Origin: Desulfocapsa sulfexigens | GTDB taxonomy: Bacteria > Desulfobacterota > Desulfobulbia > Desulfobulbales > Desulfocapsaceae | Length of the DNA stretch: 36,318 nt | Assembly (NCBI GenBank): GCA_015662865.1 | Contig: DQTH01000304.1 | Location: forward strand, 1-36,318 | Direction: 5' to 3' | In this document: one piece after another, positions 12,641 through 16,290 of the stretch | How the letters are laid out: each line of letters begins with the position of its first letter | How positions within the stretch are numbered: the stretch's first letter is position 1 | The notes under the pieces: model-generated | What the model saw: only the letters and a program-made list of their open reading frames with translations | Told to the model about the DNA's origin: nothing | Database searches by the model: none | Program-made: the position numbers and the translations under genes

Positions 12641-12660
12641 TAGTTTAACGCAAACAAGTG

Positions 12661-12674
12661 GCAACATATGTTGC
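12661..12674. promoter_or_regulatory. 14-bp perfect palindrome in the leader of the ZraP-like gene
   Basis: GCAACATATGTTGC, located just after the predicted transcription start and 14 nt before the AAAGGAG ribosome site. It could be an operator or an RNA hairpin; no regulator can be named. Confidence 0.4.
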
Positions 12675-12702
12675 AACCTATCCAATTAAAGGAGACATAG
12701 AC

Positions 12703-13245
12703 ATGAAAAAAGCAATCGCAATAACAGCAATGGCAGCAATTATAGGATTAACCGGAATGTATCAGGCCTCGGCTAACAGAGGGCAGGGTATGATGGGTGG
12801 TATGATGGGCGGCGGTGGCGAAGGATGCCCGGGCGCTGGTATGTATGCAGCAACAGCCCAGATGGATGAAGCCACAAAGGCAAAATTTGAAACCTTTTTC
12901 AATGATACACAAGCATTAAGAAAAAAAATGGTTGTAAAACGTGCTGAAAAAAGAGCATACATGCGCTCAACTAATCCTGATCCAGCAGCAATTGGTAAAC
13001 TTGCCGGTGAACTGTTTGATCTTCGCGCATCCATGCGTGCAAAAGCAAAGGCAGCTGGACTTGGCGATTTTATTGGAAGAGGTCATGGTATGCAAAACTG
13101 TGATGGCCACGGAGCACACCATGGCGGTAGAGGAATGATGAAAGGTCATGGTATGATGATGAAAGGAAAGGGAATGATGGGTGGCCCCGGAATGATGGGC
13201 GGACAGGGAATGATGGAAGGCAATCAGGCTCCTGTAAAAAAATAA
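12703..13245 (+). CDS. ZraP/CpxP/Spy-like periplasmic metal-binding protein
   Basis: 180 aa from the ATG at 12703, which has AAAGGAG 8 nt upstream; an upstream in-frame ATG (adding MATYVATYPIKGDID) lies inside the leader and is rejected. Signal peptide with a likely cleavage after ASA (residue 24). The mature protein has a Gly/Met-rich N-terminus with one Cys, a helical middle (about 45-110, TKAKFETFFNDTQALRKKM ... LFDLRASMRAKAKAAG) resembling the zinc-resistance/CpxP helical hairpin, and a Met/His/Gly-rich C-terminus (GHGAHHGG, repeated GMMGG). It should bind metal ions and protect envelope proteins. The sigma-54-like promoter matches the control of E. coli zraP. It ends at a strong terminator. 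Confidence 0.8.
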   Translation: MKKAIAITAMAAIIGLTGMYQASANRGQGMMGGMMGGGGEGCPGAGMYAATAQMDEATKAKFETFFNDTQALRKKMVVKRAEKRAYMRSTNPDPAAIGKLAGELFDLRASMRAKAKAAGLGDFIGRGHGMQNCDGHGAHHGGRGMMKGHGMMMKGKGMMGGPGMMGGQGMMEGNQAPVKK

Positions 13246-13390: not shown

Positions 13391-13419
13391 TTGACAACTC
13401 CATTGCTCCAGGATATTAT
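13391..13419 (+). promoter_or_regulatory. Sigma-70 promoter driving the cobalamin riboswitch
   Basis: TTGACA (13391-13396), exactly 17 nt spacer, TATTAT (13414-13419). The predicted start near 13426 coincides with the 5' edge of the riboswitch aptamer, which supports both calls. Confidence 0.8.
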
Positions 13420-13425
13420 ATTTGA

Positions 13426-13586
13426 AATTCAGGTGTCTGTGAGAGGACTGAAAAGGGAACTTCGTGTGAATCGAAGACGGGCCCGCCGCTGTAACCGGGG
13501 ACAAAACCTGCATGTTGCCACTGACGTATAATTATTGTCGGGAAGGCGCAGGAAAAGAATAATCCGGAAGTCAGAAAACCTGCCTG
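13426..13586 (+). ncRNA. Cobalamin (B12) riboswitch aptamer
   Basis: Conserved elements appear in the canonical order: GGTG (13432), AAAAGGGAA (13451), TGTGAATC, the GCCCGCCGCTGTAACCGG segment (13490-13499), the B12-box piece GCCACTG (13517-13523), GGGAAGGCGC (13540-13549) and CCGGAAGTCAG then ACCTGCC (13564-13584). This is the class I adenosylcobalamin-type architecture. It is followed by a hairpin at 13615-13630 and a terminator at 13648-13689, so control by premature termination is likely. No B12 synthesis or transport gene follows on this strand; the next gene is feoB on the opposite strand. Confidence 0.93.
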
Positions 13587-13647
13587 AAAATGAGGTGACC
13601 GCTGTCGAGGAATATCAGTGATTAACTGATCTTGTGGATATAAAGGG

Positions 13648-13689
13648 AAATCCCCAGGTCTGAACATTATCGGCCTGGGGATTTTTTTT
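13648..13689 (+). terminator. Terminator (expression platform) of the cobalamin riboswitch
   Basis: AAATCCCCAGG and CCTGGGGATTT form an 11-bp stem with a 15-nt loop and are followed by eight T residues. Upstream, ATCAGT-GATTA-ACTGAT (13615-13630) may take part in the switching fold. Whether ligand controls the terminator cannot be shown from sequence. Confidence 0.88.
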
Positions 13690-13734
13690 GTTTCTCAGGC
13701 CATCATACAGGTAATACCTGAGGAGACATGTAAG

Positions 13735-13827
13735 ATGGTTTTACGCGAAAAGAGTTTAACAAAAATGTATTTATGGCAGATTACTGACTGGGATTGCTTT
13801 CAGAAAGTTATGCGCAGACTGCTGTAG
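13735..13827 (+). CDS. Doubtful 30-aa ORF downstream of the riboswitch
   Basis: ATG at 13735 preceded by GAGGAG (13720-13725) at good spacing; encodes 30 aa beginning MVLREKSLTKMYLW and ending VMRRLL. It is the only plus-strand open frame with a good ribosome site between the riboswitch terminator and the feoB 3' end. It resembles no B12-regulated family that I know. It could be a microprotein, the stump of a deleted riboswitch target, or chance. Confidence 0.2.
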   Translation: MVLREKSLTKMYLWQITDWDCFQKVMRRLL

Positions 13828-13833
13828 GCATCG

Positions 13834-13866
13834 GCATGATGTCTGGAGTTGTTCCAGGCATCATGC
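13834..13866. repeat. 14-bp hairpin at the feoB stop codon
   Basis: GCATGATGTCTGGA-GTTGT-TCCAGGCATCATGC with one G-T position. It abuts the feoB TAG and is probably the transcript end or a 3'-stabilising hairpin for the convergent feoB and riboswitch transcripts; there is no T-run on either side. Confidence 0.55.
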
Positions 13867-16085
13867 TATCCCAGTAAATTGCCGATCTGAAACACGAGCA
13901 CGGATGCAAAAAAAGCAAATGTCGTGTTAAAGGCCATTGAAAAAAATGCCCATTTCCAGGACGCCTCTTTTGCGATGCAGACAACTGTGACAAAACAGGG
14001 CGCATAAAACATAATAAATATTAACGCTGAAACAGCTACAACACTGTTCCAGCTCGGATCTTTAACAAGCCTCTTTCCCAGGGAGTCTGCGTCATCCACA
14101 TCAATATCTCCCATGGAATAAACTGTGCCCAAGGTGGAAATGATAACTTCCTTGGCAGCAAAGCCTCCAAGCATTGCAATGTTTGTCTTCCAGTCAAAAC
14201 CTGCATAAACTGAAACAGGCTCAAAAAAACTGCCAATCCTGCCTGCCACTGAATTACGCAGAGTTAATCCTGACTCTTCCTGCTCGATTTCTTTGAGCCT
14301 GTTTTTAAGTTCCAACGCCTTTTCTGAGAGTACATCTGTATTATCATTGAAATCCATTACTTCGCGTTGCACTGCTTCTGAGTAGCTGTTTGTTATAGTG
14401 TTGCGTGCAGCGTTGAATGTGTCTTGCTCAGATTGTGGGAGGCCTGGAAAGGTCATCAGTGCCCAGAGAAGAATGGAAATACCGAGAATTACTGTTCCCG
14501 CTTTTTTGATATACTGCCATGTTCGTTCCCAGGTATGAATAATAAGGCCGCGAAGTGTTGGAAAACGATAAGGGGGAAGTTCCATGACAAATGGTGTCGC
14601 CTCACCCTTTAATACTGTCATGCGGAGAAATTTTGCTGCAAACAGGGCAACAAGCCAGGCCAGCATGGTAAAGAGAAACATGTAGAGAGCTTTGTGATCG
14701 GCAAAAAAAGCACCAATCAGTAAAACAAGGACCGGCACTTTTGCACCACAGTTCATGAAAGGAACCGTGAGCAGGGTTGCCATTCTTTCTTTGGGTGAGC
14801 GCAGGGTTCTGGTTGCCATGACGCCAGGCACTGCACAGCCGCCTGCAATACCGCCAGACACGATAAATGGCATAACACTTGAACCGTGAAGCCCAAACAT
14901 ACGAAATACCCGATCCATCATGAATGCAACTCGTGCCAGATAGCCGGAATCTTCAAGAATTGCGATTCCAAAAAACATGAACATGATAAGAGGCACGAAA
15001 CCAAGTACACCACCAACACCGTCAATAACTCCTGAGATTACCATTGATTTCAGCATACCGTCGGGCAGGGTGGTCTCGACAATGGCACCAAGCCAGCTAA
15101 AAAGACCTTCCATCCAGGCAACAGGCAGTTCGCTCCAGGAAAAAGTGAACTGGTAAAGCCCGAAAAGAATACCGAGCATAACAAGTGGCCCGAGTAAACG
15201 GTTGGTGAGAACCTTGTCTATCTTATCTGACGTGTACAGGCGGTCCGTATCAAATTTGTGCGTCATCACGCCCTGTCTGATAATAGACTTGATAAATCCA
15301 TATCGATGATCTGCTATGATGGCTTCCGGGTACACATCCATGGTTTTCAGGAGGTGATCAGAGATGGTTCCAACGGTTTGTTCCAGCTGTCTGGCAAGTT
15401 CCTGATCAGCTTCCTGCCCTTTGGTGAGCATCTGGTCGTCATGTTCCAGGTATTTTATTGCTGTGAAGCGCGCATGATATCTTTCTGTAAGAAAAGAAGC
15501 TTTCTCGATTGCAGCAATGATTTCCATGAGAACTTCGTCAAGGTCTTCGCCATACGAAATATCCCTGGGGATCCATTTTTTATCAGAATCAGCAATCCTA
15601 ATAGCCTGCCTGATGAGCTCGTCAGTACCTTTTCCTGACCTGGCAATGATCGGCACGACAGGAATTCCAAGGAGTTCAGCAAGCTTTGCAAATTTAATCT
15701 CAATGCCGCGATCTTTGGCAACATCCATCATGTTCAGGGCTATAACCAGGGGAACGCCCATTTCAAGAAACTGTGTGGTGAGGTAGAGATTTCGTTCAAG
15801 ATTGGACGCGTCTACAATATTAATGACCACGTCAGGTCTTTGCGTTGTCAGAAAATCACGGCTGACGATTTCCTCAACTGAGTAGGCAGTGAGGGAGTAG
15901 GTGCCTGGAAGATCTGTAATGACGATCTCCCGGCCATCATGATTAAAATAACCTTCCTTGTGGTCGACAGTAATTCCGGGATAATTCCCAACGTGCTGTC
16001 TTGCGCCTGTAAGTTTATTGAAAAGGGTTGTTTTGCCGGCATTCGGGTTGCCGGCAAGGGCAACTGTGATAGATTTGTCACTCAT
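13866..16085 (-). CDS. feoB: Ferrous iron transporter FeoB
   Basis: 739 aa from the ATG at 16085. The open frame continues upstream to a GTG at 16172, but that extension overlaps the small Cys-rich gene and reads non-homologous residues. N-terminal G-protein domain: G1 GNPNAGKTT at 12-20, G3 DLPG at 58-61, G4 NMMD at 118-121. A helical GDI-type segment follows, then two Gate-motif membrane halves (SGGIAGGCAVPGVMATRTL and GGFAAKEVIISTLGT) with about 8-10 membrane segments. It imports Fe(II) across the inner membrane. It sits last in a minus-strand group behind feoA2 and the Cys-rich protein. No ribosome site is visible 5' of this ATG, so translation may be coupled to the gene before it. Confidence 0.95.
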   Translation of the reverse strand: MSDKSITVALAGNPNAGKTTLFNKLTGARQHVGNYPGITVDHKEGYFNHDGREIVITDLPGTYSLTAYSVEEIVSRDFLTTQRPDVVINIVDASNLERNLYLTTQFLEMGVPLVIALNMMDVAKDRGIEIKFAKLAELLGIPVVPIIARSGKGTDELIRQAIRIADSDKKWIPRDISYGEDLDEVLMEIIAAIEKASFLTERYHARFTAIKYLEHDDQMLTKGQEADQELARQLEQTVGTISDHLLKTMDVYPEAIIADHRYGFIKSIIRQGVMTHKFDTDRLYTSDKIDKVLTNRLLGPLVMLGILFGLYQFTFSWSELPVAWMEGLFSWLGAIVETTLPDGMLKSMVISGVIDGVGGVLGFVPLIMFMFFGIAILEDSGYLARVAFMMDRVFRMFGLHGSSVMPFIVSGGIAGGCAVPGVMATRTLRSPKERMATLLTVPFMNCGAKVPVLVLLIGAFFADHKALYMFLFTMLAWLVALFAAKFLRMTVLKGEATPFVMELPPYRFPTLRGLIIHTWERTWQYIKKAGTVILGISILLWALMTFPGLPQSEQDTFNAARNTITNSYSEAVQREVMDFNDNTDVLSEKALELKNRLKEIEQEESGLTLRNSVAGRIGSFFEPVSVYAGFDWKTNIAMLGGFAAKEVIISTLGTVYSMGDIDVDDADSLGKRLVKDPSWNSVVAVSALIFIMFYAPCFVTVVCIAKEASWKWAFFSMAFNTTFAFFASVLVFQIGNLLG

Positions 16086-16116
16086 TTGTTTGGAAATTAC
16101 AGAAGTAGTTATGTTA

Positions 16117-16290
16117 TTATTTGTTTGTTTCTCTGCTGTTACAATTTGATACAGAACAGCCACTACAGCCACAACTGCAGGAGATATCCTGCTTGGGATC
16201 TACTGCCTGCTTAACTATATAATACAGTTTTTTCCCTATGAAAAATAGAGCAAGGGCGACAATGAGAACAGTGATGATTGTTTGCCACAT
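16117..16290 (-). CDS. FeoB-associated Cys-rich membrane protein
   Basis: 57 aa. ATG at 16290 with GAGG five nt upstream. One N-terminal membrane helix (about residues 4-20, TIITVLIVALALFFIG), a basic-aromatic juncture KKLYYIVKQ, then a cysteine cluster CSCGCSGC and one further Cys. This is the pattern of the FeoB-associated Cys-rich family (PF12669-like), a small partner often encoded next to feoB and thought to assist or regulate the pore. It ends 31 nt before the feoB start. Confidence 0.85.
   Translation of the reverse strand: MWQTIITVLIVALALFFIGKKLYYIVKQAVDPKQDISCSCGCSGCSVSNCNSRETNK

Follow-up and report, generated by a model that had tools for sequence, protein, structure and literature searches.

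A cobalamin riboswitch of Desulfocapsa sulfexigens, found in the analyzed window (the whole stretch of 36,318 nucleotides of contig DQTH01000304.1), very likely belongs to a self-contained, B12-repressed gene for a microprotein of 30 amino acids (MVLREKSLTKMYLWQITDWDCFQKVMRRLL), whose expression and action in trans during B12 shortage are predicted from sequence comparison. This gene, assigned by a profile, order-wide conservation, and pN/pS, occupies positions 13735..13827 of the plus strand. Its 30 codons, from the ATG at 13735-13737 to the stop codon at 13825-13827, follow the riboswitch terminator. The Shine-Dalgarno sequence GAGGAG was read in the sequence at 13720..13725 of the same strand and is kept in relatives, with GAGGAG or a close form upstream of the ORF in the genus and a GGAGG-type sequence in the family. 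The preliminary description of this DNA stated that the next gene on the sense strand is absent, which fails in view of this conserved ORF with its Shine-Dalgarno sequence. A tiny protein at 13735-13827, the last alternative offered there, proved to be right, the ORF being conserved as a protein across the order.

An AlphaFold2 model of modest confidence (pLDDT 74) shows one helix, spanning residues 3-29, and the microprotein is probably a single helix that does not span the membrane. Amphipathicity of this helix was not significant for the D. sulfexigens microprotein. An initial suspicion that a pseudogene C-terminus lies in a different frame (MMSGVVPGIMLSQ) was dropped; this stretch belongs to the hairpin and is absent in relatives. 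Directly upstream of the riboswitch-ORF unit, positions 12658-13245 encode a Met- and His-rich ZraP-like Metal_resist protein, homologues of which were found near the unit in many relatives.

The promoter, complete aptamer, and terminator described previously were all confirmed. The sigma-70-type promoter TTGACA-17-TATTAT (13391..13419, plus strand) matches the consensus at 11 of 12 positions and is kept in the genus: of the 14 genus loci scanned, 13 have TTGACA with a 17-nt spacer, and its distance from the aptamer hardly varies; in the 14th, L041, it was seen in a separate scan. The aptamer (13414..13601, plus strand) covers the full RF00174 model (1-189) with a score of 120.7 bits (E 5.5e-30), compared with a gathering score of 31.5, and by this match is an ordinary member of RF00174. 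The expression platform is an intrinsic terminator at about 13643..13690 of the plus strand (-27.5 kcal/mol, z -5.9), and a terminator-like hairpin was also found between the aptamer and the ORF in most related loci. A candidate antiterminator, with a conserved UCAG-AAACCUG core against CAGGUCUGA, is put forward as plausible only, since the duplex test did not discriminate. In one locus (L048, genome G018), the aptamer match to D. sulfexigens DNA is split in two with approximately 237 nt between the parts, which suggests a long insertion inside the riboswitch.

The D. sulfexigens element shares with RF00174 riboswitches that act through a transcription terminator the full aptamer and the terminator platform, and is likewise expected to be repressed by B12. 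At other loci of the order, however, RF00174 drives btuB, tonB, and cbiK, whereas here and in related genera it precedes a single gene for 30 amino acids. Three further cobalamin riboswitches were found in the D. sulfexigens genome, located before cbiK, before a ThiC-family gene, and at a contig end; the B12 regulon is therefore otherwise ordinary. The cobalamin riboswitch at G000:C65:2554-2743 (L051) lies upstream of a ThiC-family gene, which possibly has a role in formation of the B12 lower ligand (BzaF-like).

Close matches in the genus were found by a search with the riboswitch DNA, and 14 loci (L035-L048) were read. All of these loci have an ORF of 30-33 codons downstream of the terminator, and the promoter, aptamer, terminator, ribosome-binding site, and ORF are kept in the same arrangement in these 14 relatives. 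In total, 15 Desulfocapsa-group genomes of the genus carry the ORF behind this riboswitch; no ORF match was found in 4 of the 20 genus genomes, some of which are incomplete. Ten residues are invariant in the genus ORFs: M1, E5, S7, K10, D18, W19, D20, Q23, R27, and L30. The third codon position is the most variable one, and the pN/pS ratio is 0.28 at a pS of 0.73, with synonymous sites near saturation.

The ORF profile, which matches its own genome with an E-value of 4e-20, has matches in 63 of the family's 93 genomes. A broader profile gave matches in 115 of 258 genomes and 39 of 69 genera of the order, with named records from Desulfocapsa, Desulfocapsaceae, and Desulfobulbaceae. Judged by these matches and by the four genus genomes that lack one, the microprotein is not universal in the order, and absences are weak evidence since many of the genomes are metagenome-assembled. 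When the phylum was sampled evenly (395 genomes), 7 genomes matched, all of them inside the order except for one marginal match. The core motif is M-x3-E-x4-K...DWD-x-[FY]-Q...R, and in nearly all loci a start codon with a Shine-Dalgarno sequence is located 16-17 codons upstream of [DN]WD. A same-strand cobalamin aptamer was found upstream in 80 of the 81 loci tested, the exception holding just 71 nt of upstream sequence, and was confirmed with Infernal in the 15 loci checked. These comparisons show the microprotein to be conserved as a coding sequence across the order and, within the order, constantly tied to the riboswitch. The scan of 44 members against Pfam and NCBIfam gave nothing significant, the PDB sequence search gave no more than DWDSFQ matches at the level of chance (E 0.075 at best), and no description of the family was found in the open-licence literature searched.

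The microprotein gene occurs in several gene contexts. Standalone copies were found in the D. sulfexigens family and in loci of other families (such as L183, L184, and L199); the genes around them differ and lie on either strand. In several families, the microprotein gene opens a B12-uptake operon, btuB-exbBD-tonB-btuF, which encodes a TonB-dependent receptor, ExbB, ExbD, TonB, and a periplasmic binding protein (confirmed with Pfam on representatives); in these operon forms, the stop codon of the ORF and the start codon of btuB often share an ATGA (gap -1). In three loci (L188, L193, and L209), the gene lies upstream of genes for a Gate-domain permease and CbiK. Fusion of the microprotein to the N-terminus of CbiK was found in five genomes of family f6 (L177-L181), where it precedes a hydrophobic segment and a signal-peptidase-like site; a sixth case is genome G021 (L120), whose microprotein frame runs on into cbiK. 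CbiK as a dedicated general partner was rejected; the microprotein is also encoded in genomes that yielded no CbiK (families f4 and f8; G046 and G040). A gene for a ribonucleotide reductase of the class II type lies 0.5-1 kb downstream of the microprotein gene in three Desulfocapsaceae loci. Two arrangements of neighbouring riboswitches were also observed: a TPP riboswitch close to the cobalamin riboswitch on the opposite strand (L120:1099-1210) and two divergent cobalamin riboswitches about 230 nt apart (L217:1743-2389).

For the delta-proteobacterial B12 regulon, Rodionov et al. (2004; PMC545781) described B12 elements upstream of cbiK-cbiL and of transport genes. In the excerpts of that study considered here, such elements at these genes and a cbtX-like permease adjoining cbiK agree with our loci, the Gate-domain permease is probably the cbtX of that study, and a microprotein is not mentioned.

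Two copies without a riboswitch were found, each of them a single case. The first one (L108:2999-3082, contig MFAE01000008 of Candidatus Campbellbacteria) encodes 27 amino acids and shares 81% identity with a member found in the order. This CPR copy follows a HIT-family gene, is the last gene of a transcription unit, has its own terminator downstream, and was possibly acquired by lateral transfer. In the search of 240 genomes of the CPR phylum, this was the one clear copy, accompanied by one weak match. The second copy is located in a phage (L223:3001-3103, IMGVR_UViG_3300042535_000023), near genes for DNA polymerase and dUTPase. It lies directly upstream of, and overlaps the start of, a ribonucleotide reductase gene, whose assignment to class II was read from its sequence. 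NrdJ as a general partner was rejected: the ORF is missing from three other phages that carry a related nrdJ.

In the proposed mechanism, binding of cobalamin would stop the nascent leader at the terminator, and scarcity of cobalamin would let the polymerase pass it, as the anatomy of the leader suggests. The 30-aa protein would then be translated from its own ribosome-binding site on a message that would end at the hairpin before feoB, and would act in trans, with corrinoid uptake, the insertion of cobalt, or an enzyme that depends on B12 as its point of action. Three observations underlie the inferred action in trans: standalone copies are under selection, a copy exists in a CPR genome, and some copies are fused to CbiK. 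The absence of riboswitches from the CPR and phage copies is a further argument for it. The contexts agree on B12 supply and use and point to several candidate partners (BtuB/TonB, CbiK, and NrdJ). About even chances are given to the wider proposal that this is a new, order-wide family of microproteins serving as B12-starvation effectors in trans, on corrinoid uptake, on cobalt insertion by CbiK, or on B12-dependent ribonucleotide reductase, with one member acquired by a phage and placed immediately before the phage's own class II reductase gene.

Short ORFs under B12 riboswitches that act in cis, uPPE2 and the metE uORF, are known in Mycobacterium tuberculosis (PMC11260477). The D. sulfexigens ORF could likewise be a leader peptide setting expression of a downstream gene, with the standalone copies as relics. 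This explanation fits the many operon loci where the stop codon overlaps the btuB start by ATGA, like the AUGA overlap of uPPE2 with ppe2 (PMC11260477), and at such loci the ORF could be a cis leader. As a general account it is unlikely. The standalone copies have no same-strand gene downstream, are under purifying selection, and are closed by hairpins; the CPR copy ends its transcription unit and has no riboswitch; and different families have kept the peptide itself, which also occurs fused to CbiK. Unlike the uPPE2 type, which is a translational switch, the units described here have a transcription terminator, a conserved peptide, and standalone as well as fused copies. Coupling to a main gene was found only in the operon forms of other families; at the D. 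sulfexigens locus no same-strand gene follows the ORF before feoB.

The feoB gene (13866..16172, minus strand; FeoB_N 3e-68, TIGR00437 4e-175) is a convergent neighbour outside the unit. As described previously, it lies on the opposite strand, with its stop codon at 13866, 176 nt beyond the terminator end at 13690. Between the stop codons of the microprotein gene and feoB, a hairpin was found at 13834..13866 (arms GCATGATGTCTGGA/TCCAGGCATCATGC, z -3.5). Over the 14 genus loci the post-ORF hairpins have a mean z of -4.4 and differ in sequence; with 75 nt tested, they are weak in two of these loci (L040 and L043). The D. sulfexigens hairpin is probably the transcription boundary of the two convergent genes, termination there being a prediction since the hairpin has no T-run.

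The preliminary description had instead proposed that read-through in low B12 makes RNA antisense to feoB. On this reading, ferrous iron uptake would be lowered. An antisense-acting cobalamin riboswitch is known for pocR in Listeria (PMC9943018), which likewise is aimed at the 3' end of a convergent gene, and the convergent feoB at 176 nt is kept in most genus loci. Nevertheless, such regulation is very improbable for D. sulfexigens. Unlike the Listeria case, a coding target is present (the 30-codon gene at 13735-13827), a hairpin stands as a barrier ahead of feoB, and the pairing with feoB is not conserved: genome G003 keeps the riboswitch and the ORF but has lost feoAB at the locus, and in genus g5 and other genera the unit lies beside other, unrelated genes. 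Occasional read-through into feoB may occur in D. sulfexigens alone. A deleted target with the riboswitch as a relic, also suggested previously, would agree with the lack of a sense ORF of more than 100 codons before feoB but is hardly credible, as the locus comparison found the same arrangement, from the promoter to the ORF, in 14 relatives.

Riboswitches are usually read through the enzymes or transporters under their control. The riboswitch-ORF unit looks orphaned because its tiny gene is below the usual annotation limits, and the self-contained microprotein gene proposed here suggests that small proteins are hidden behind other orphan riboswitches. With the order-wide conservation, the fusion to CbiK, the first place in uptake operons, and the phage reductase neighbour, a layer of B12 economy becomes testable. 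In one whole order of sulfur-cycling bacteria, a microprotein is kept under a B12 switch, and its gene is often alone on the message.
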